From: an uncultured Gammaproteobacteria bacterium
GTDB lineage: Bacteria > Pseudomonadota > Gammaproteobacteria > Eutrophobiales > Eutrophobiaceae
Assembly: GCA_943788005.1 (NCBI GenBank)
Contig: CALSOP010000001.1
Location: forward strand, 248,001 to 312,000
DNA length: 64,000 nt
Reading direction: 5' to 3'
The translations under genes were made by a program, and so were the position numbers. This document shows, in pieces, positions 3,582-14,564 of the stretch. A model generated the notes under the pieces. That model was given only the letters and a program-made list of their open reading frames with translations, ran no database searches and was not told the origin of the DNA. Numbering within the stretch: position 1 is the stretch's first letter; each line of letters opens with the position of its first letter.

Positions 3582-5411
3582 TCATAAACACTGCTTGATA
3601 TAATTACGCCAACCACCAAAATCAGTAATATCTTCAGCGCCTTCGATTCCGTATGGTTCACAAATAAAACTATTTACTTCTTCGCCACCTTCAAGGTTTG
3701 CTTTACCAATTCCTAATGGAGAAGGAATATTTATCATGAATCTCCCAAAGTCTGCTAATGGCATACGCCAAACTTCGACCTCTATTGATTTCCCATTATC
3801 ACTATCTTTTACTAAACCAGGACGCAATGGTGGTCCTCCTGCAAGCGCATAAAGTCTATAACTAGCTTCCGTATGTGTTGCTTCGATTAGAACTGCATTA
3901 TTGTCAGTTAGTTGATGATTCAATGGCATACCGGATAAATGCGCTCCGCAAACTGCTATATCAATAGTAGTTTTGTCTTTGTTACTGGCATGAGAAACTT
4001 TCTTGGGGTCCCATTTAAAATCGGTTGATCCCATCTTGATAAGTTTCCCATCAAGAAACTTCTTTGCCTGTTCTAACAATTCGAAATCTGTGAATGCTTG
4101 GCTAAACAACGTCACACCAAATGGAAAATCATCTTTATCAAACCCGGCAGGGATAGCTATTGCTGCGTAATCCAATAAATTCATGAAGTTAGTGTAGTAG
4201 CCTAGATTAGAATTGAGTTGGACAGGTTCATCATTGACCTCTTCAATTCTATACTTTGTCCCTGTAGTTGGTGTTACTACAAAATCAACTTGTTCTAATA
4301 TTTTATCCGTCTCTTTCTTCAGTGCTAGAAGTTCATAAAATTTCTTAAAGGTTTCTACAGCACCAATGTCCTTTGCAGGTAAAATAATGTTTTTAGTAAT
4401 TGGAAATAAAGCATCTGCCTTGCTTTCAATGAGCTCGTCTATTGCTGCATAACGTTCGGCCAACCATGGACCTTGATAAAGTAAGTTGGCGGTATTAATG
4501 AAGGGTGTAAAATCAATTTTTGTGATTTCATAACTTACTCCGACATTACTCTCATTCTTATATGTTTCATTAGTGAATCGATTAACGAATTCATTAAATA
4601 ATTGTTCATAATCTTTATTTCCAAAGAACTTTAACGACGCGCTATCCGGCACTCCAATTTTATATTTTTTATTGTTTGTGTAAGCCGTGCTAACACGTGA
4701 ATAAATATCTGTAGGGTCATAACAATCAACAGTATCGAAAACTGTAGCAACATCATCAGGATTAAGTGCAAAAATACTAATGCAATCCAGACTTCGACAT
4801 GCAGGGACAAGGCCTGAGGTACTTATTCTTCCTTTTGTCGGTTTTAATCCAACGAGATTATTAAAGGCAGCAGGCACTCGGCCTGAGCCAGCGGTATCTG
4901 TACCTAAAGAAAAACTGACCAATCCTAGTGCAACAGAAACGGAAGAACCGGAACTTGAACCACCAGAAACGTACTCAGGATCAAACGCATTTTTAACAGC
5001 GCCATAAGGAGATCGTGTTCCAACCAGGCCTGCTGCAAATTGATCTAGGTTAGTTTTGCCAATGGGTATTGCCCCAGCATCTATTAATAATTGCACAGCA
5101 AATGCATTCTCTTTTGGAATATAACTGAACTCTGGACAAGCCGCCGTTGTAGGTATTCCAACCAGATCAATATTATCCTTTATTGCAAAGGGTATCCCAT
5201 ATAATGGCAAATCGTCTGGTCCCTTCCCTTGTAAATTAGAAAGGTAATTTTCTATTTCATCTTCATTAAGTAAACGAATCCAGATATTGTATTCTTCAAA
5301 TGATTTAATCTTTGCTGTTATATCTGCAATCAATGTCTCCGGACTTGATAAACCATTTCTATATCGTTCATGAAGTTCAGTTATGTTTAATGAATAGTCT
5401 TGTTGAGTCAT
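3582..5411 (-). CDS. atzF: Allophanate hydrolase AtzF
   Basis: Cytoplasmic hydrolase converting allophanate to ammonia and CO2, the last step of urea- or guanidine-carboxylase pathways. The 609-residue length fits the full two-domain enzyme. The N-terminal amidase-signature domain (about 1-440) holds the Ser-cisSer-Lys triad at Lys78 (PFAIKDN), Ser152 (GGSSSGSS) and Ser176 (TDTAGSGRVP); these spacings equal those in AtzF. The C-terminal domain (about 465-605) carries CGAHLSGMPLN and GGPPLRPGLV, typical of allophanate hydrolase. It is the last gene of the guanidine operon, 20 bases after the carboxyltransferase gene. No clear terminator was seen before the convergent ubiK. Confidence 0.95.
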   Translation of the reverse strand: MTQQDYSLNITELHERYRNGLSSPETLIADITAKIKSFEEYNIWIRLLNEDEIENYLSNLQGKGPDDLPLYGIPFAIKDNIDLVGIPTTAACPEFSYIPKENAFAVQLLIDAGAIPIGKTNLDQFAAGLVGTRSPYGAVKNAFDPEYVSGGSSSGSSVSVALGLVSFSLGTDTAGSGRVPAAFNNLVGLKPTKGRISTSGLVPACRSLDCISIFALNPDDVATVFDTVDCYDPTDIYSRVSTAYTNNKKYKIGVPDSASLKFFGNKDYEQLFNEFVNRFTNETYKNESNVGVSYEITKIDFTPFINTANLLYQGPWLAERYAAIDELIESKADALFPITKNIILPAKDIGAVETFKKFYELLALKKETDKILEQVDFVVTPTTGTKYRIEEVNDEPVQLNSNLGYYTNFMNLLDYAAIAIPAGFDKDDFPFGVTLFSQAFTDFELLEQAKKFLDGKLIKMGSTDFKWDPKKVSHASNKDKTTIDIAVCGAHLSGMPLNHQLTDNNAVLIEATHTEASYRLYALAGGPPLRPGLVKDSDNGKSIEVEVWRMPLADFGRFMINIPSPLGIGKANLEGGEEVNSFICEPYGIEGAEDITDFGGWRNYIKQCL

Positions 5412-5431
5412 TTTATCAGGTCACTTTCTAA

Positions 5432-7417
5432 TTAATTATTTAATTCACCGGTTTCGATCCAACGTTCTCGTTCAGCTTCGAATGCATCTTGTTGCTTTAA
5501 CTTAAAGCGCTCTATGTCGATTTTATTCTTTAGTAAAAATGTTTTGTATGCACCATAATCCAAAACATTTTCTTCAATTTTTAAGTTGTAGTCACCGTTT
5601 GGGAAATCATGTCGTATCTGTATTAATTCATCTTCAGTTACCGGAAAGAAACGAATTTGATCAAAGAAGCGTAAAAGCCACGGTTTATCACCGTGAAAAT
5701 CAATATTATTTTCACCCTTATTCCACATCTGTAAGGTACGGCCAACAAATTGATATCCACCCGGGCCTTCCATGCCATAAACACACATATAGGCACCACC
5801 AATACCCACTGCATTTTCAGGCGTCCATGTTCGAGCAGGGTTATATTTTGTTGTAACCAGACGATGTCTAGGATCAAGCGGTGTTGCAACGGGTGCACCA
5901 AGATAAACATCACCCAAACCCATCACTAAATAACTGGCATCAAAGACGATTTTTTTTACCTCAGCAACGCTCTGCAATCCATTAATCCTTCGAATGAACT
6001 CTAAATTACTCGGACACCATGGCGCATCATCCCGTACCGACTGCATATAGATATCTATTGCTTTTTGAGTTGACGGGTCATTCCAACTTAAAGGTAAATA
6101 CACTATGCGTGAAGGAATGCATACTTTATCAACATCTTCTAATTTTTTTTCAGCCGAAACGAGAACATCGATGAGTTTATTAGTATTGATTACTTTATTA
6201 TCATAATGAATTTGTAATGACCTTATCCCGGGCGTTAGGTCAATGATGCCCTTATTAATATTCGCTTTAACCCATTCCATTAATAAGTGGGCTCTTAACC
6301 TAAGTGCTAAATCAAGTGTCATTTCACCGTATTCAACCAGGATATTATCTTCACCTGATAAACGATAAACCACATCAGGTCTTTCATTGATTTTCTTAAT
6401 GTGACGACAAACTGCACTTTCCGGTGTTATCGGTATAGTTTCTGGGGGAGAAATATATTTTAAGGTTTCAATTTCTTGTAGTTGTATTTTTTCTAATGCA
6501 TTTGCTTGTTCAATACTGATCGGAATAAAACGTATTTTATCGCCAGGTTTTAATTGTCCCATTTTCCATAAATCAGCATTTATAATTGTAGCAGGACAAA
6601 CAAAACCGCCTAGACTAGGTCCATCTGGCCCTAATATAACAGGCATATCTCCTGTGAAATCGATAGTGCCTACAGCATAGGGATTATCATGCAGGTTCGA
6701 GGGATGTAAGCCTGCCTCCCCTCCATCTTTTCTTGCCCAATTAGGTTTGGGGCCAATTAAACGTACACCGGTCCGGCTAGAGTTGTAGTGAACTTCCCAA
6801 TCTGTTTTAAAAAAAGACGCTATATCTTCTTGAGTAAAAAAATCGGGAGCACCTTGCGGGCCATAAACCACATGGAGAGTCCATTTATTTTTGTATTCAG
6901 GAACCAATTGATGGTCAATGATGTTGCAAGGTCTAAACTTCTCTTCTTCATTAAGAAATAACACATCTTCTTTTTCAAGTGCCCTACCCTGATGCCCTCC
7001 AAATTTTCCCAAGGTAAACGTCGCCTTGCTGTTTAAATAGGGTTCAATTTTTAAGCCATTTTTAATACAAAGATAGGCACGCATACCAACGATGATCGAT
7101 TCTATTTTTAAGATACTGCCCGCCTTAACGCGGATAGCATTCCACTGTGACATCGAAACACCATTTAACATCATCCTTGCTGGTGCACCTGTAAGACAGA
7201 TAATAGCCTCAACATGAAACTTCAACTCTGGACCAACCAGGGTAATCTCTAATCCTGCCGCAGCTTTATCATTACCTAAAATCTGATTGCCTAATTGGAA
7301 AGCCCGGTTATCCATCGGGCCTGATGGCGGCACACCAACATTCCAAAAACCTATCCTGCCAGGATAATCCTGAACTGTAGTTTGTATACCCGGTTTTAAA
7401 ACTTCTATAGATTGCAT
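5432..7417 (-). CDS. Stand-alone carboxyltransferase part of urea/guanidine carboxylase (KipA-KipI fusion)
   Basis: A 661-residue protein whose N-terminal half is a KipA/AHS2 domain ([28 protein letters not shown]) and whose C-terminal half is KipI/AHS1-like ([29 protein letters not shown], later [19 protein letters not shown]). It corresponds to the central carboxyltransferase segment of urea/guanidine carboxylase. It starts directly at that domain, so there is no biotin carboxylase, and ends at [13 protein letters not shown], just where the biotin carrier domain with its MKM motif would follow. Neither missing part is encoded nearby. It may work with separate biotin proteins, or as a 5-oxoprolinase-like enzyme. 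It sits between the DUF1989 genes and atzF with short gaps. Confidence 0.85.
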
Positions 7418-7428
7418 GGGCTTATTAT

Positions 7429-8070
7429 TTATTGATTCCAGATCAATACTTGTATGGGTGTTGGATTGTAGGCATTACATGGGTTATTAAGTTGCGGACA
7501 ATTAGATATCAGGGCAATGACATCCATCTTTGCTGTTAATTCAACATACTTGCCCGCATCCGATATACCATCTTCAAAGGTCAATCCGCCTTCTGCTGTG
7601 ACGGGCACATTCATAAAGAAATTTATATTGTGCGTAATATCCCGCTTACTCATATTAAACTCTGGGTGTTCAGCGACAGCGAGTAGCCAGCTATCACGAC
7701 AGGCATGCATGCATTTCTTTTCTAGCGCATAACGCACTGTGTTTGATTCGGTGGCACAGGCACCGCCAAGCGTATCGTGTCGTCCACAGGTATCGGCAAC
7801 GATTTCTAGCAAGACATTGCCATGATTGGACATCAAATCTGAACCTGCCGTTAAATAGACATTCCCCTGTTCACGGATGCTATCAATAGCGGAATAGCGT
7901 TCAACCACATCATGTGCGTTATAAAATAGTGTGTCCGCTGCTTGATTACCTTCCAGATCAAGAATGCGTAGGGTTTGACCTTGCTTAACAACATGCATCC
8001 AGTAATCACCAGCGTCAATTGTCTTTGCATAATTTGCATTATCTGCATTACGAGGACTTTCTTTAATCAT
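7429..8070 (-). CDS. DUF1989 protein, UAAP2-type subunit of carboxyguanidine deiminase
   Basis: A 213-residue member of the DUF1989 family long annotated as urea-amidolyase-associated protein 2 (UAAP2). Together with the UAAP1 partner this family has been shown to form carboxyguanidine deiminase (CgdAB), which removes ammonia from carboxyguanidine to give allophanate. Visible conserved parts are the start [70 protein letters not shown] and the C-terminal [20 protein letters not shown]. It starts two bases after the UAAP1 gene and ends 11 bases before the carboxyltransferase gene, implying coupled translation. Which partner is CgdA or CgdB was not decided here. Confidence 0.88.
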
Positions 8071-8072
8071 CG

Positions 8073-8813
8073 TTATTGTCCTCCCTGCAGATGATAGATA
8101 GCGTTGTTTTGAAAACCACGTTGGTTTTCAGGTCTGGAGTTCATACAAAAATCATCATCGGCAACAGGTGCTGCCTTACGAATTTGATAGATTAAAGGCT
8201 TTTTTGGATAGTCTGTTGCACTATTCAAGGGATGTGGACAGGTATGAAATAAAACTAACGTGTCCATTTCAAAACGTAGATCTACATAATCACCCGCTTT
8301 ACTGTTTGCTTGGTCAAAATTTAAATTACCTTCACCATCGGTAAAGACACGACTAAACCAATTCAGATTTGCTGTCATATCACATTGGCTTAAGCCGTGC
8401 TTTGCTAACTCAACCAAAAAACTATGTTCACCACTGAGTGTCCAATCATTTCTCTGTTCTTGATAAGACTTAACAGCCCATTTTTTTTTCATATTAGCAT
8501 CAGTCAAATTCCCGCTGATCGTATCATGCCAACCAACACTATCGTCAATAATGGAGCAAAGAATCCTGCCCATGTCTGAATACAAACAATGCCCTTTTGT
8601 GAGCTTAAAAGTATGTTGGCATTTCAATGTATCGGGGGCGTTATAACGTTCAAGCTTATCGGTTGGGTTATAAAACAACATACCGACATTCACACCGCCA
8701 TCTTTATCGATTAGACGCAATGTTGTGCCTTTGCGCATTAACATTGACCAATGTGACCCACCAGGGATCTCATCCTCATACATTATTTCTTTATCAGGAA
8801 ATATTTCAGCCAT
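8073..8813 (-). CDS. DUF1989 protein, UAAP1-type subunit of carboxyguanidine deiminase
   Basis: A 246-residue DUF1989 protein of the urea-amidolyase-associated protein 1 (UAAP1) type, the second component of carboxyguanidine deiminase. Conserved segments include [60 protein letters not shown] and TCPHPLN near the C-terminus. It shares the fold pattern of the following UAAP2 gene, as expected for a heteromeric pair. It is the first full-length gene behind the second guanidine-I riboswitch, and its ATG lies one base after the stop of a 32-codon small ORF, with GGGAG placed suitably for initiation. Function depends on a carboxylated guanidine supplied by an upstream carboxylase. Confidence 0.88.
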
Positions 8814-8814
8814 T

Positions 8815-8913
8815 TCATAAGCTCCCGTTTATTTTTGCAGGAATAGAAACCAGAGATTTTTCATTGATGTGCTTGTGGCTAGAGCAATAAACTCTTTTTA
8901 AATTACTTGTCAT
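8815..8913 (-). CDS. 32-residue small ORF between riboswitch and DUF1989 genes
   Basis: The ATG at 8913 is preceded by a strong Shine-Dalgarno (GGAGAG, about six bases away). The frame runs 32 codons, starting MTSNLKRVYCSSHKHINEKS, and stops one base before the ATG of the UAAP1 gene. The protein is basic and polar with one Cys and two His, with no membrane segment or known domain. It could be a genuine small protein, a leader ORF that couples riboswitch-controlled ribosome entry to the downstream gene, or chance. The quality of its ribosome site and the tight junction make chance less likely. Confidence 0.5.
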   Translation of the reverse strand: MTSNLKRVYCSSHKHINEKSLVSIPAKINGSL

Positions 8914-8964
8914 GCGCTTCTCTCCAGTGTTACTTCACGTTGAAATGTATTGCCAATTGCTGGC

Positions 8965-9070
8965 GTATCGCATCTCCCGGGCTTTTGTCCCGCCGTGTAA
9001 CCTTTGAGAAGGTCGATAACTCTCGGACCAGTCACTCGTTAAAGCCGGAACCCTAGTTATCCATTTATAA
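8965..9070 (-). promoter_or_regulatory. Guanidine-I (ykkC) riboswitch upstream of DUF1989-atzF genes
   Basis: On the minus strand this stretch carries in order CTAGGGTTCCGGC, GACTGGTCCGAGAG, TTACACGGCGGGAC and AAAAGCCCGGGAGA, the conserved blocks of the guanidine-I class (ykkC subtype 1) that binds free guanidinium. It starts about 30 bases after the glnT-like stop codon, so it appears intra-operonic. Between the aptamer and the small ORF only a short GCCA/TGGC hairpin is seen and no T-run, suggesting translational control or read-through regulation. It is a near copy of the element at 14.2 kb. Confidence 0.93.
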
Positions 9071-9088
9071 ACTAAAATATATCAGTAA

Positions 9089-10486
9089 TTAAAACATGTG
9101 GCTATATCGTTCCACCTCCCAAGCACTTACACCCTGATGATACTCTTCCCATTCTTGTGTTTTATAACGAATGAATTCCTGTTTTAATTCTTTACCTAAT
9201 ACAGTCTCAACTAATTCATCTTCAGCAAAGGCTGTCACAGCTTCAGCCAGTGTCTGTGGCAAAAATTCTATACCTCGTTCCATTCGTTCTTCATCGCTTA
9301 GTTCATATAAGTTATCTTCCTGTGAGTCACCCGGATCTATTTTTTCCCGAACACCTTCTAATCCTGCAGCTAATGCCAAAGTCGCAGCTAAATAGGGGTT
9401 TACTGCACCATCTGCATTGCGAGATTCACAACGACCACCACCCATAGGCACGCGTACTGAATTAGTTCGATTATTAGATCCGTAAGAATTAAATACCGGC
9501 GCCCAGGTAAAATAGCTCATCGCACCTTGGCGTACTAATCGCTTATAGCTATTCACGGTTGGCGCAAACGCAGCGCATAAGGCACGGCCATGTTTCAATA
9601 TACCACCAATAAAATAATAGCCTATCTGAGTTAGCCCTAATCCCCGTGGGTCATCTTTTGGGGTACACTCAAAAACATTGTCGCCTGATGCAAGATCAAA
9701 CAGTGACATATTGAAATGTGCACCATTTCCCGTTTTATCTTTGAAAGGCTTAGGCATCATTGTCGCAAGCAGCCCTTCATCCGCAGCATAGCGTTTTGCT
9801 AATTCACGAAAGAAGATAAATCGATCACACATCGTCAAAGCATCAGCATAATTAAAATCAAATTCAAATTGACCATTAGCATCTTCATGGTCAAAGGAAT
9901 AAATATCCCAACCCAAATCATTCATCGTCTCTGCCATGCGATCTAACCAGGTAAAATTATCCATAAACCCGCGCAAGTCATAACAAGGTTTGGTTAACTT
10001 ATCATCGGCACACGGAACAGATAGACTGCCGTCTTCATTTTTCTTTAATAAAAATATTTCACATTCGATACCTAAATTAAAACCAAAACCAAGCTCAGCT
10101 GCTGCTTCTAATTGTTGTTTCAAGGCGACTCGTGTATTTAACTTATACGGCACACCTTTAAACGTATTGTCCGCCGGCATCCAGGCGATCTTGGGCTCCC
10201 AAGGTAATTGAATAATATGGTCCAGATCGGGTATTGATGCAATCTCATCATCATTTGGCTTCTGACCAAGACCATCCAGAGCATAACCGGTATATAGCTC
10301 TGATCCATGTGCCATATGTAATAAGTGATCGATAGGCACAACTTTACCTTTGGGTATACCGTGAATATCCACATAGGCTCCCATGCAATAACGCACGCCT
10401 TTATTTTTTAAATCTTTTTGAATCGCTAGAATTTCATCATCAGATTTATCTTTGGGTAATAAATGCTCTTTCGTTTTTATATCCAT
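9089..10486 (-). CDS. Type III glutamine synthetase-like ligase (GlnT family)
   Basis: A 465-residue ATP-dependent ligase of the glutamine synthetase superfamily, closest by eye to rhizobial type III GlnT and related to gamma-glutamylmethylamide synthetase. Landmarks are [32 protein letters not shown], the ATP-binding [22 protein letters not shown] and [10 protein letters not shown] with [20 protein letters not shown]. The usual FDGSS ammonium-site segment of type I enzymes reads LDGLGQ here, so the amine acceptor may not be ammonia. It lies 16 bases after the creatininase-like gene and just before the second riboswitch. It could capture released ammonia or ligate an amine or guanidine to glutamate; the substrate is unknown. 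Confidence 0.85.
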
Positions 10487-10502
10487 TTGGTAGTTAACTT
10501 TA

Positions 10503-11255
10503 TTAATTAGAATACGGCTTTGAAAGCGGTGCTTGTTCAGTTAATCCACGTAGTATTAATTCAGAGAGGTCTTCGACCATCCAACAAAAGAACTCATCGC
10601 CTTTTTCTTTTGTTGCCACCGAAGGTCTTCCTGTGACGCCATTTTTACTGGTACGGTTTACTGGATGTGAAAATACAAGGCCATCAGTACGATCAGGGTC
10701 GTCAGCTATATCAAAGGCATATGTATTAACCATTTCCGGGGCTATAGACAACATTAATGACGTTTCAGCATCATTTGCATGCCAATCATCGCCATCGGTA
10801 AAATGAAATTGTCGTACGCGTTCGCTAAGCTTTGCGGAATTTAAAACAGCGACCATCAAGTCATCATGTTCAGCACGTAACATTTCTAATGCGCATCTTA
10901 GCGGCGCGGCATTCGTCACATGTGTATTTACAATAAATAATTTTTTAACTCCACTATGATATGCCCAATCACCCATTTCCTTGATTAAATCGATTAGTGT
11001 TTTCGGTTGAAGCGCAATGGTGCCGGGCCAATGTTGGCTATGTCCAATAGAACACCCATATGGCATAGTCGGCAACATCATGACATTAGTTTTTTCTGAA
11101 ACGGCCTTACATAATTTATCCGCAAGTACAGTATCCGTGCCACATCCCATGTGTGGGCCATGCTGTTCTGTTGCTCCAATCGGTAATATAGCGGCAGGAA
11201 CGACTTTCATCTTTGCAGTAACATCTGGCCATGGCATTTGTTCTAGAAAATTCAT
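10503..11255 (-). CDS. Creatininase-family metal-dependent amidohydrolase
   Basis: A 250-residue member of the creatininase family, usually binuclear-metal enzymes that open amide bonds. The first metal motif is intact and spaced as in creatininase: Glu30, His32 and Asp41 in [15 protein letters not shown]. His112 lies in NTHVTN, where most relatives have NGHGGN, and the late motif reads WHANDAETS instead of HAGExETS. The ligands therefore look mostly present but the pocket is altered. Its ATG overlaps the stop of the ABC ATPase gene by four bases (ATGA), so it is translationally coupled to the transporter. A guanidino compound is a plausible substrate from context; the activity is not known. 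Confidence 0.85.
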
Positions 11256-12154
11256 GGCTCAACTTCATCACCAACACGCGTTAAGCGAATCATATTTAGT
11301 TTATCGTCCTCATCTTCGTCTGAAGGCGGGTGAATTAACTCGTCAATACGTTTACGTGTTGCTAAAAATTCCGGGGACATAAATTGTTCTGGGTCACGGG
11401 GACGCGGAACAGGCACTTCAATCACTTCCTGCACTTCGCCAGGGTGCGCTTTTAATACTAGAATCCGGTCTGCGAGATAAATTGCTTCATCCAAATCATG
11501 CGTGATAAACAAAACTGTTATATCAATATTGTGCCAAATCTGTAAAAGATACGACTGCATCCTGCTACGTGTTTGTGCATCAAGCGCGCCGTAAGGCTCA
11601 TCCATTAAAAGTATGCGTGGTTTATTTGCGAGCGCGCGCGCAATGGCAACACGCTGTTTCATTCCACCGGAAAGTTGATCCGGATAAGATTCCGAAAATT
11701 TTTCTAAACCGACTAAATCAATCCATTGTAAAGCTTCACCTTCGGCATTTGCTTCACTCATTCCCTGACTACGAAGCCCGAACATGACATTTTTTTTAAC
11801 CGTCAACCAAGGAAACAATGTATATCCCTGGAAAACCATACCTCTATCAGGACCCGGTCCTGAAACAGGTTCTCCATCAAGCAACATTTGACCTGTACTT
11901 GCAGATTCCAAACCAGAAAGAATACGAATCAAGGTTGATTTGCCACAGCCCGAGGCGCCAATAACACAGACAAATTCTCGACGATGCACTTTAAAGTTAA
12001 TGTTTTTTAGCGCCGTTATCTCGCCTTTTGCGGTGGTGAAATATTTATATAAATCTTTAACTTCAAGAATTACTTCACGCTGTTTAATCTCATCAAACCG
12101 TTCTTTAACCTCATCGGATTGTTCTAGATAACTGGGGAGTTCTATACGTGTCAT
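11252..12154 (-). CDS. NitT/TauT-type ABC transporter ATPase
   Basis: A 300-residue ATP-binding subunit energising import. The Walker A ([10 protein letters not shown], near residue 63), Q-loop ([11 protein letters not shown]), ABC signature (LSGGMKQR), Walker B ([12 protein letters not shown]) and H-loop ([10 protein letters not shown]) are all present. About 30 N-terminal residues precede the domain, and a charged tail of about 50 residues ([14 protein letters not shown]) follows it. It lies 12 bases after the permease and overlaps the creatininase-like start by four bases. Transporters of this family are recurrent members of guanidine-I riboswitch operons, so guanidine or a derivative is the likely cargo (inference). 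Confidence 0.92.
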
Positions 12155-12166
12155 AGTGGTTCTCTG

Positions 12167-13132
12167 CTAAGCCTTGTTTGCCGATCGTTCCCAAGGGAAT
12201 ATGTACTTGCCTAGTTTGGCTAAAATGATATCGGACAGTAAACCAATAATGCCGATCATCATGATGGCTGCAAAAACATTATCGAAGTTTTTGTATCGCG
12301 CCTGTTGTGTAATAAACCAGGTAATTCCAGAACTGGTGCCGATTAACTCAGCTACAATCAAATACGTCCACGCCCAGCCAAGCAGTATCCTTAGATCACG
12401 AAACAGATCCGGCAAAATACCGGGAATCACTACTTTGAATAGTAACTGCATCCGCTTAGCACCCAAGGTAAGTGCAGCTTCTAACAATGAAATATCCAGC
12501 TTTCGTGTTGTATTGCTTACAATAAGTACTTGTTGGAAAAATGTTCCTATAAAAATAATAGCGATTTTTGGCCCATCGTAAATACCTAAAATGGCAACGG
12601 CAAGTGCACCAAATGCCGGCGCAGGAAGATAACGAAAAAACTCAATAAAGGGTTCATGTATACGTGAAACAGCAGCATAGGTTCCACATAACACACCGAT
12701 AGGCACACCAACTAATGAAGATAAGATAAAACCCCAAAAGATTATGGTGATACTGTGCCATAAACTTTCATGCAACCATTGTTCACTACGCCGTTGTGGT
12801 TCTGTTGTGAATGAAGTGACAAATGCCTTGGCAACTTCATGAGGCGCAGGTAAATAAATAGGGTTTGCTCGTTTACCAGTAGGCAAAGTTTTACCTGCTG
12901 CTTCTACTTTCGAACTTTCTTTTTTGAAAACCTCACGATCGACCAACATATCGACTTTAAAATAAGACACATCACCGGGGTCAATAACTACAACCTTCGG
13001 ATGCCAAAGAAATGGCACGTAACTAACCGCACTCCATATTAAAAGTGGCAATAAGAACGAAACAATCGTCAGCACCCTGGTGCGCTTTGTAGATAAAGCA
13101 ACACGCGGCGCAAACCAGGGAGATGAACTCAT
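12167..13132 (-). CDS. NitT/TauT-type ABC transporter permease
   Basis: A 321-residue inner-membrane permease. A first helix near residues 22-42 is followed by a periplasmic segment of about 60 residues, then the core transmembrane domain with the EAA loop (SLLEAALTLGAKRMQLLFKV) that contacts the ATPase. The C-terminal half has several hydrophobic helices (IFWGFILSSLVGVPIGVLCG, VFAAIMMIGIIGLLSDIILA). The extended first periplasmic loop is larger than in SsuC-type permeases and may aid docking of the binding protein. It lies between the binding-protein and ATPase genes with gaps of 18 and 12 bases. Confidence 0.92.
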   Translation of the reverse strand: MSSSPWFAPRVALSTKRTRVLTIVSFLLPLLIWSAVSYVPFLWHPKVVVIDPGDVSYFKVDMLVDREVFKKESSKVEAAGKTLPTGKRANPIYLPAPHEVAKAFVTSFTTEPQRRSEQWLHESLWHSITIIFWGFILSSLVGVPIGVLCGTYAAVSRIHEPFIEFFRYLPAPAFGALAVAILGIYDGPKIAIIFIGTFFQQVLIVSNTTRKLDISLLEAALTLGAKRMQLLFKVVIPGILPDLFRDLRILLGWAWTYLIVAELIGTSSGITWFITQQARYKNFDNVFAAIMMIGIIGLLSDIILAKLGKYIFPWERSANKA

Positions 13133-13150
13133 ATGACGAATACCTGGCCT

Positions 13151-14137
13151 TTATTTAGCCATTGTTAATGATGGGTCGGTATAAGCATCGATATCCTGCG
13201 CTTCCTTATAGACCTCGTACTTAAGATTGAAATCATCCGCGATCTTTGAAGAACCATATATCGATTTAAACCCTTCTCCCTTAGCATAAAAGCCCTTGGC
13301 TTCTTCCAGCGTTAAGATCTTGGTACCAGCAAGCAAAGGTTTATATTCTTCCGGAGTAACACCGACTCTTGCTGCCATGATTGATACAGCTTCATCCTGA
13401 GTAGCAGGATCCAAAATATAAGCAACTGTCTGGTACCAAACATCAACTACTTTGGACCAGGCAACTTTATTAGCAGAAAGGCTACTAGGCGAGACAGCCA
13501 ACACATCGTATATCAGGCCAGGTTCATCAGCTGATGAATAGATTTTTTTCGAACCAGGAACCGAGGTTAAGGCTTGTCCAGAATTAGGCTGCCAAGCAAC
13601 AATAGCACTGACATCACCCGACGCTAACACCTGTGGTGTTTCATTTGTAGGCACATTGACCAGTTCTACATCAGCTTCGGTCATACCATTCTTTTCTAAC
13701 GCATTTAATAATAGCAAATGACCAACAAAACCAATCTCAACTCCGACCTTTTTACCTTTTAGATCTTTAATGCTTTCGATACCCGGAGCACCAACAATCA
13801 TGTCATTGCCATTACTATAATCATTAATAATAATCGCAACGTTACTGGCCCCTGTAGCACCCGTAACTAATGCATCACCGTTTGTCATGGTTACAGCATC
13901 TAATTTTCCTGCAGCAAATGCATCCATCGAAGCAACATAGTCAAACCATTCAAACTCAACTTCTACACCAGCTTCTTTAAACATGCCTTTTTCAATTGCT
14001 ACTTCCCATGCAACCCAACCTGGCCAGTCACTGTAACCAACCTTGAGAGGCTCAGCATTAATAGAAAATGAAACAGAACTAAAAATTAAAGATGTGACTA
14101 ATAACAATTTTTTACGGATAGTGTTATGAAACTTCAT
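13151..14137 (-). CDS. ABC transporter periplasmic substrate-binding protein (NMT1/SsuA-like)
   Basis: A 328-residue exported protein with a signal peptide (about residues 1-28, ending SFSINA). The mature part begins [19 protein letters not shown], the usual start of NMT1/THI5/SsuA-like binding proteins, followed by [33 protein letters not shown] and [12 protein letters not shown]. These proteins deliver nitrate, taurine, aminopyrimidines or, in ykkC-controlled operons, guanidine-type ligands. It is the first gene behind the distal riboswitch and the sigma-54 promoter, with an AAGGGGAAGG ribosome site. Confidence 0.92.
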
Positions 14138-14177
14138 AAAACCTTCCCCTTATGTGTAGTTGAAAAAATATTTGAAA

Positions 14178-14216
14178 GAGAGGTACCAATGATCTGAATC
14201 ATGGTGACTACCTCCC
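14178..14216 (-). terminator. Putative riboswitch expression-platform hairpin
   Basis: On the minus strand GGGAGGTA (the 3' edge of the aptamer) can pair with TACCTCTC, enclosing a second stem CCATGAT/ATCATTGG. A broken T-rich run follows (TTTC, then TATTTTTTC nine bases on). Use of the aptamer's 3' strand in the hairpin fits a terminator that competes with P1, so guanidine would turn expression on. The displaced T-run makes this uncertain. Confidence 0.45.
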
Positions 14217-14328
14217 GGGCTTTTATCCCGCCGTGTAACCTTCGGATGAAGGTCGATTGCTCTCGGACCAGTCACGTTGTCTTTAACGCCGGAACCCTAG
14301 CGATCTATTTGAAAGGCTAGTAACTACC
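14207..14328 (-). promoter_or_regulatory. Guanidine-I (ykkC) riboswitch at head of the ABC transporter operon
   Basis: On the minus strand CTAGGGTTCCGGCG, GACTGGTCCGAGAG, TTACACGGCGGGAT and AAAAGCCCGGGAGG occur in the order and spacing of the guanidine-I aptamer. Upstream ACTAGCC can pair with GGTAGT after the core as P1. The predicted sigma-54 start near 14359 would place the aptamer about 30 bases into the transcript, and the binding-protein gene follows about 70 bases after it. Confidence 0.94.
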
Positions 14329-14370
14329 GAATCATGAACATCAATAGCTCTCATTCTTAATATGTTGCAG

Positions 14371-14386
14371 TGCAGTTACTATGCCA
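14371..14386 (-). promoter_or_regulatory. Sigma-54 (-24/-12) promoter of the guanidine operon
   Basis: On the minus strand TGGCATAGTAACTGCA matches 9 of 12 sigma-54 consensus positions with the exact 10-base GG-GC spacing. It has the same TGGCAT...CTGCA form as the glnK and porin promoters. It sits just upstream of the riboswitch, so initiation would include the whole aptamer. Confidence 0.75.
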
Positions 14387-14437
14387 AGCAGAAAACCCTT
14401 TGAATATAAGGGTTTCAGATTGCACATAAAAATTTCT

Positions 14438-14454
14438 TGCAACTTACTGGTGCG
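14438..14454. promoter_or_regulatory. NtrC-like box 1 of the guanidine operon
   Basis: TGCAACTTACTGGTGCG matches 11 of 14 NtrC consensus positions, including the complete TGGTGC half. Its centre is about 87 bases upstream of the predicted transcription start. Confidence 0.65.
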
Positions 14455-14467
14455 TTTTTTTATTTAA

Positions 14468-14484
14468 TGTTCTAAGTCTGTGCA
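14468..14484. promoter_or_regulatory. NtrC-like box 2 of the guanidine operon
   Basis: TGTTCTAAGTCTGTGCA matches 9 of 14 NtrC consensus positions, with a full GTGCA half. Its centre is 30 bases from box 1, the same spacing seen at glnK and nearly the same as at the porin. Confidence 0.45.
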
Positions 14485-14564
14485 ACAAGAAACAAAAAAT
14501 GTGATAAATTAGTTTGAAGATTTTTAACCAGTTTTATGTAATTAATTTCAAGGATGAAATATTG

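Follow-up and report, generated by a model that had tools for sequence, protein, structure and literature searches.

We analysed a window of 64,000 nucleotides from an uncultured gammaproteobacterium of the family Eutrophobiaceae (assembly GCA_943788005.1, contig CALSOP010000001.1), in which a minus-strand cluster at 3582-14311 carries a creatininase-family protein (Crn) and a glutamine-synthetase-like ligase (GlnT) among genes for the use of guanidine. A guanidine-I riboswitch (aptamer 1) precedes genes for the substrate-binding protein (SBP), permease and ATPase of an ATP-binding cassette (ABC) importer, followed by crn and glnT; these five genes are referred to here as the block. Aptamer 2, in the gap separating glnT from cgdA, is followed by cgdA, cgdB, a carboxyltransferase (CT) gene and atzF. 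Aptamers were identified with RF00442 and domains with Pfam and NCBIfam models, and enzyme roles are those predicted from published families (Table 1). The composition agreed with the initial annotation, which had listed two guanidine-I aptamers, an ABC importer, a creatininase-family hydrolase, GlnT, two DUF1989 proteins, a carboxyltransferase and AtzF, as did the overlap of 4 bases between crn and the ATPase gene and the start of glnT 16 bases after crn. The Crn-GlnT pair was found to be a conserved companion of the carboxylase pathway.

Table 1. Features of the guanidine cluster in the window, with examples of the regulator gene found in related loci
Feature	Positions	Strand	Model scores and remarks
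Guanidine-I riboswitch aptamer 1	14210-14311	minus	RF00442 91.9 bits, gathering score 63; precedes importer-Crn-GlnT block
ABC importer SBP, SsuA/TIGR03427-like	13151-14137	minus	TIGR03427 161.7 bits vs cut-off 333.9
ABC importer permease	12167-13132	minus	PF00528
ABC importer ATPase	11252-12154	minus	PF00005
Crn, putative creatininase-family metal amidohydrolase, own subfamily	10503-11255	minus	PF02633 235.8 bits
GlnT, putative type III glutamine-synthetase-like (GMAS-like) gamma-glutamyl ligase, own subfamily	9089-10486	minus	TIGR03105
Guanidine-I riboswitch aptamer 2	8972-9067	minus	RF00442 86.5 bits, over gathering score
CgdA, predicted carboxyguanidine deiminase subunit (DUF1989, UAAP1)	8073-8813	minus	TIGR03425 322.5 bits, over cut-off; name by operon order
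CgdB, predicted carboxyguanidine deiminase subunit (DUF1989, UAAP2)	7429-8070	minus	TIGR03424 338.6 bits, over cut-off; name by operon order
Stand-alone CT half of predicted guanidine carboxylase	5432-7417	minus	TIGR02712 positions 447-1111
AtzF, predicted allophanate hydrolase	3582-5411	minus	TIGR02713 766.3 bits vs cut-off 511.05
NikR-like gene, examples in related loci	L126:12249-12698; L100:12200-12655		among 53 loci

The known guanidine carboxylase operon (gca-cgdAB-atzF with an ABC importer and guanidine-I or guanidine-II riboswitches) shares with the window CgdA, CgdB, AtzF, a CT with the guanidine signature, guanidine-I control and an ABC importer. The window differs in the importer subfamily, the Crn-GlnT pair, the presence of only the CT half of the carboxylase, and the second guanidine-I aptamer inside the operon. 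The cluster is best explained as a guanidine-inducible nitrogen-scavenging operon, that is, an altered form of the guanidine utilisation operon already known as a kind. Apart from the two aptamers, no guanidine-I match was found in the assembly, whose completeness is 85.5%. A hairpin 3' of aptamer 1, overlapping the aptamer's 3' end (-19.2 kcal/mol, z -1.88; 9 of 200 shuffles folded equally well), is a possible terminator that guanidine would release; it was not among the calls of a consensus terminator scan. No convincing hairpin was found downstream of aptamer 2, where an expression platform was looked for.

To survey related loci, named genomes were scanned with a Crn alignment and the best 80 of 549 relatives were kept; the percentages apply to this subfamily and not to all creatininases, and many of the records are metagenome assemblies. 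In 79 of the 80 loci, Crn had a same-strand GlnT homologue (at least 45% identity) next to it, at a distance of up to 200 bases in 75 and up to 361 bases in the other 4; L121 was the sole locus in which none was found beside Crn. Block-type importer genes (at least 50% identity) were present for the SBP in 64/80, the permease in 61/80 and the ATPase in 62/80 loci, and CT, CgdA or CgdB in 52/80 by tblastn (53 by open reading frames). Among the 62 blocks with visible upstream DNA, 12 had a guanidine-I riboswitch directly before them, 3 of these 12 being close relatives of the window. The pair was kept in Hyphomicrobium-type loci even though GlnT was only 50% alike and the gene order was reversed. 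The initial annotation had proposed that Crn and GlnT may form a second branch acting on guanidine or a derivative, and had tied this proposal to recurrence of their linkage with guanidine-I riboswitches in other genomes; the linkage recurs. Since the pair recurs and a riboswitch precedes the block in part of the loci, action on guanidine or a derivative is likely, and membership of the block in guanidine utilisation is very probable.

Record titles of the carriers named alpha-, beta- and gammaproteobacteria, many with names of methylotrophs or sulfur oxidisers, lifestyles that we presume from the names. The nearest named Crn, among the matches listed, was that of Thiotrichaceae bacterium UBA973 (93% identical), together with those of two Gammaproteobacteria metagenome-assembled genomes (MAGs). 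A record titled as a Klebsiella pneumoniae MAG (L081) held a block 73-86% identical to that of the window, and its organism label looks wrong. Four Hyphomicrobium-type loci (L113, L117, L139, L140) had the order GlnT-Crn and neighbouring regulators that belong to a single cluster (the one tested, that of L117, is a TetR type by Pfam), and three (L113, L117, L140) had another ABC importer type. Gene-to-gene identity correlations were weak (Crn-GlnT 0.46, Crn-CT 0.35, GlnT-CT 0.52, Crn-SBP -0.16) and were not used.

The link to the carboxylase was assessed in 369 genomes sampled evenly across the class (the class sample). At E up to 1e-40, 9 genomes had Crn; at E up to 1e-100, 32 had CT, and these included all 9 Crn genomes (hypergeometric probability 9e-11, kinship ignored). 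In 8 of the 9, CT was within 15 kb of Crn on the same contig; in G275 it was on another contig. Guanidine-I riboswitches were found in 29 of the 369 genomes, 4 of the 9 Crn genomes among them. Block genomes, hand-chosen and partly for methylotrophy, were screened for a carboxylase elsewhere, urease, MgsC and a TIGR03427 SBP. A carboxylase elsewhere in the genome, guanidine and urea types not being told apart, was found in 18 of the 21 genomes that lacked one near the block. Because the pair occurs in genomes with a carboxylase, and no urease alpha match was found in the five genomes of the window's clade (G000, G003, G005, G009, G016), an independent second branch is less likely; of the initial proposal, it is the action on guanidine or a derivative that was borne out as likely.

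Crn resembles creatininase (creatinine amidohydrolase) in sharing PF02633 and residues E30, H32, D41, H112, H159 and E164, which were invariant in 80/80 aligned sequences and which we take to be the metal site. It differs in scoring below the cut-off of the creatininase equivalog TIGR04448 (125.5 bits vs 235) and in not keeping, in the alignment with creatininase, tryptophan positions that we assume to be creatinine contacts of that enzyme.

GlnT scored above the cut-off of TIGR03105, the type III glutamate--ammonia ligase model (649.2 vs 469.6 bits). Catalytic residues of glutamine synthetase (GS) were kept in the block-type GlnTs, with E141, E143, E201, E208, H257, R340, R345, E354 and R356 in 75/75 and H200 in 74/75. 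The closest solved sequence was glutamate-methylamine ligase 9qur. In alignment with archaeal GS 8oow, T66 and W328 of GlnT replace an Asp and a Glu, presumably the ammonium-site Asp and the latch Glu, and 9qur has Ala and Trp there. All block-type GlnTs (75/75) had S62, E63, T66, A69, D71 and G72, within the signature GSExxTGxALDG, and five Hyphomicrobium-type GlnTs beside Crn kept the S, E, T and D or E. Instead of the Ala/Ala/Trp of the GMAS-type amine-pocket loop, GlnT has E63/T66/D71; two GMAS-type sequences beside mgs-like genes had Gly, Ala, Ala and Trp at the positions of S62, E63, T66 and D71. GlnT is thus probably a ligase for an amine, with two acidic residues acquired in its acceptor loop, and a planar cation such as guanidinium would fit such an acidic loop. 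GlnT as the sole glutamine synthetase was rejected, as other PF00120 proteins were present in 5/5 clade block genomes at a relaxed threshold; at a stricter threshold G016 had shown only one. Also rejected was a general methylamine/GMAS reading, for MgsC matches were absent in 15/25 block genomes, all 5 clade genomes included.

The window CT is 661 amino acids long and covers positions 447-1111 of the 1201 of TIGR02712; the biotin carboxylase and biotin carboxyl carrier protein (BCCP) domains are missing. It is therefore not the single polypeptide with biotin carboxylase and BCCP, and it has no AMKM-type motif. A biotin-carrier type motif was present in 38/38 full-length CT sequences vs 0/4 short ones, and 237 of the 243 columns invariant in the full-length sequences were kept in the short ones. 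The available part of PMC11410670 gives Asp at Kluyveromyces lactis positions 1330 and 1584 as the criterion for guanidine carboxylase; when the window CT is aligned to 5i8i, this Asp pair corresponds to D253 and D503 (counted manually). An assembly error was rejected as the source of the half enzyme, the same architecture (661-666 amino acids) being present in G003, G005, G009 and G016; the loci noted with the half enzyme in this clade, besides the window, were L037-L040. That the missing parts are encoded elsewhere as a dedicated gene was also rejected, each of 7/7 genomes having a single gene with the biotin carboxylase C-domain (PF02785); in the window genome this gene is AccC-like and lies beside an AccB-like gene. 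We infer that AccB and AccC would supply carboxybiotin to the stand-alone CT. It is conceivable that the stand-alone CT has lost its carboxylase activity.

Control of the block took two forms in the related loci. Of the 62 blocks with visible upstream DNA, 12 had a guanidine-I riboswitch within 1.2 kb upstream, and just one of these loci (L085) also had a NikR-like gene. Of the other 50, 44 had a NikR-like gene in the locus and 6 had neither, so that riboswitch and repressor nearly exclude each other (Fisher 2.6e-7, kinship ignored). NikR-like genes were found in 53/80 loci by tblastn, 47 of the 53 within 400 bases of glnT. The inverted repeat TATTA-N16-TAATA, mostly GTATTAC-N14-GTAATAC, was upstream of the block SBP in 35 of 46 NikR-like loci, and in 30 shuffles no such repeat was common to more than 3 loci. 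Allowing up to 2 mismatches, 58 sites were found in 1.54 Mb vs 4 in one mononucleotide shuffle; 46 of them, in 46 loci, stood immediately in front of the SBP, 3 in front of Crn, 2 in front of CgdA and 1 at a NikR-like gene, with 6 unassigned. Among the 12 riboswitch loci, only L085 had such a site, and it was away from the block. Of the 6 blocks with neither control, 4 had the operator before the SBP (L116, L119, L124, L136); L116 and L119 had a guanidine-II aptamer upstream of the operon. The window had no operator site at up to 2 mismatches and no NikR-like gene. The class sample and the clade gave 34 loci, likewise without a NikR-like gene, and operator sites were found only in L067.

The regulator of the relatives resembles the nickel repressor NikR in having a ribbon-helix-helix domain and the NikR C-terminal domain, and in an operator of two inverted half-sites, which we assume also for NikR. 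Its distinction from NikR is weakened by the three proteins tested, all of which scored over the NCBIfam NikR equivalog cut-off. In contrast to NikR, whose nickel ligands we take to be His, His, His and Cys, it sits with guanidine genes, the column of the nickel Cys held T, M, I, A, L or V in all 34 proteins read of the 53 found, and the His-x-His pair was complete in 21/34. A role as nickel sensor was rejected on the loss of this Cys, although NCBIfam names the protein NikR. Most simply, a NikR-derived repressor would substitute for the riboswitch in relatives. As such a substitute, it probably senses guanidine or a close product (or the glutamyl product), and is a candidate protein guanidine sensor.

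For the two enzymes we tentatively favour a model, built from protein families and alignments, in which GlnT attaches a gamma-glutamyl group to guanidine or methylguanidine, forming an acylguanidine that Crn then hydrolyses. From family knowledge, guanidine would be imported by the ABC importer and carboxylated by the CT half, with AccB and AccC of the cell providing carboxybiotin; the carboxylated guanidine would be deiminated to allophanate, which would be split to ammonia. GlnT would join glutamate to guanidine (or methylguanidine) with ATP, giving gamma-glutamyl-guanidine, and Crn would hydrolyse its acylguanidine bond. Incoming guanidine might in this way be trapped in a less basic form and then released to the carboxylase route, with the NikR-derived repressor controlling the same block in relatives instead of the riboswitch. 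Creatinine is a cyclic acylguanidine, and creatininase opens its acylguanidine bond; a creatininase relative acting on gamma-glutamylguanidine would therefore be chemically coherent. The TIGR03427 SBP is taken as the canonical guanidine importer. In 20/25 block genomes, including that of the window, no SBP passed its cut-off, and guanidine is therefore the probable cargo of the block importer; the block SBP was the sole TIGR03427-like SBP in the window genome at E up to 1e-20. A GS-like gamma-glutamyl ligase is also the amine entry step in the route of GMAS with MgsABC and in that of PuuA; the difference is that the block's partner is a creatininase-family hydrolase and that the window clade has no MgsC match. 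GlnA4, reported to act on ethanolamine, is a further GS-like entry ligase.

Several points weigh against this model. In 5/25 block genomes a TIGR03427 importer adjoined the carboxylase at a site away from the block, and given these separate importers the block may import something other than guanidine. Making and cleaving the same bond within one operon risks a futile cycle. The placement of E63 and D71 in the amine pocket is read from alignment alone, three of the 21 block genomes without a nearby carboxylase (G407, G408, G420) had no carboxylase match at all, and a literature search returned nothing on gamma-glutamylguanidine.

Nearly as likely as trapping and release is that the block imports another guanidine compound (an acylguanidine, guanylurea or a methylated guanidine), from which Crn frees guanidine for the carboxylase route while GlnT captures the freed ammonia or amine. 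Such a function would go with the carboxylase and would coexist with the separate importer-plus-carboxylase clusters of the 5/25 genomes. It has a precedent in the methylguanidine demethylation of such operons, as the available part of PMC12508155 describes it, and MgdH/MgdL-like genes were found near blocks. It fits less well with the 20/25 block genomes that have no TIGR03427 importer over the cut-off, in which the block importer is probably the guanidine carrier, and with a GlnT without the ammonium-site residues. Those same residues make it unlikely that GlnT is an ordinary glutamine synthetase for pathway ammonia and that Crn has an unrelated minor role: the pathway sets ammonia free and GlnT belongs by score to a model named for glutamate--ammonia ligase, but the Asp and Glu are replaced as in GMAS, other GS genes accompany it in 5/5 clade genomes, and the near-obligate pairing with Crn is left unexplained.

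A true second branch would arise if Crn hydrolysed guanidine to urea, either unaided or once GlnT had gamma-glutamylated it (the products then being glutamine and urea), and acylation followed by hydrolysis would mirror carboxylation followed by deimination. A strong urease alpha match was found in 16/25 other block genomes, with weak partial matches over the cut-off in two more, and G407 and G408 have the block and urease with no carboxylase match. Against these stand the clade genomes without urease and the block's company with the carboxylase in 9/9 class-sample Crn genomes, which make this function improbable. Least probable is that GlnT works as a genuine GMAS (methylamine ligase) and that the block handles methylamine from methylguanidine. 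The closest solved sequence and the many methylotroph names among the carriers agree with it, as do L095 and L112, where GMAS-like and mgs-like genes immediately precede the block. In both loci, however, the gene resembling GMAS is a separate one without the block signature, and an MgsC-like gene was found in 0/5 clade genomes and only 10/25 block genomes.

Other genes were noted beside the blocks of related loci. Genes like mgdH (cluster c9) occurred in 6/80 loci and genes like mgdL (c4) in 10/80, near blocks. When compared with genes that follow gca in L064 and L058, c9 showed 54-60% and c4 25-40% identity; those genes lie at roughly the site at which the available part of PMC12508155 places mgdH and mgdL. 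The names are putative for c9 and c4, being given by family and position. As far as that source goes, the methylguanidine extension is like the Crn-GlnT pair in adding an enzyme pair to a guanidine riboswitch operon, with likely homologues near some Crn-GlnT blocks, and unlike it in its enzyme families; none was seen beside the window's block. A membrane desaturase-like protein (PF00487) was encoded by Crn-GlnT blocks in 14/80 loci, often accompanied by a TIM-barrel protein (PF01261), an MBL-fold hydrolase or an EamA transporter. A guanidine-II riboswitch was directly before the desaturase gene in L040 (7581-9395), L081, L125, L116 and L119, and was not found before it in L114, L124, L136 and L152. 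The desaturase-associated genes are possibly another guanidine-releasing route. Genes like those for GMAS and N-methylglutamate synthase immediately preceded the block in a Thiobacillus locus (L112:2287-6694) and a Hydrogenophilales MAG (L095:2418-6760).

Our literature search found nothing joining a guanidine riboswitch to a glutamine synthetase and a creatininase, or guanidine carboxylase to a glutamine synthetase, although earlier papers may already contain part of the linkage, and among the papers listed there was nothing on the Crn-GlnT pair or on a protein guanidine sensor. The available parts of PMC12951989, PMC11446756 and PMC12625717 contained nothing on the pair.

Guanidine riboswitches are widespread and the roles of several genes that they control are open; two unexplained enzymes are now tied to guanidine use by counted linkage. 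The wider proposal, which is doubtful as a whole, is that a gamma-glutamylguanidine cycle of GlnT and Crn may be an unrecognised part of guanidine metabolism under two interchangeable sensors, a riboswitch and a NikR-derived repressor, and that the carboxylase of the window's clade may be a stand-alone transferase fed by AccBC. A regulator annotated as NikR, with a precise operator, is named as a candidate protein sensor replacing a riboswitch at the same operon. The split carboxylase predicts a nitrogen-scavenging carboxylase that would borrow AccBC from fatty acid synthesis.

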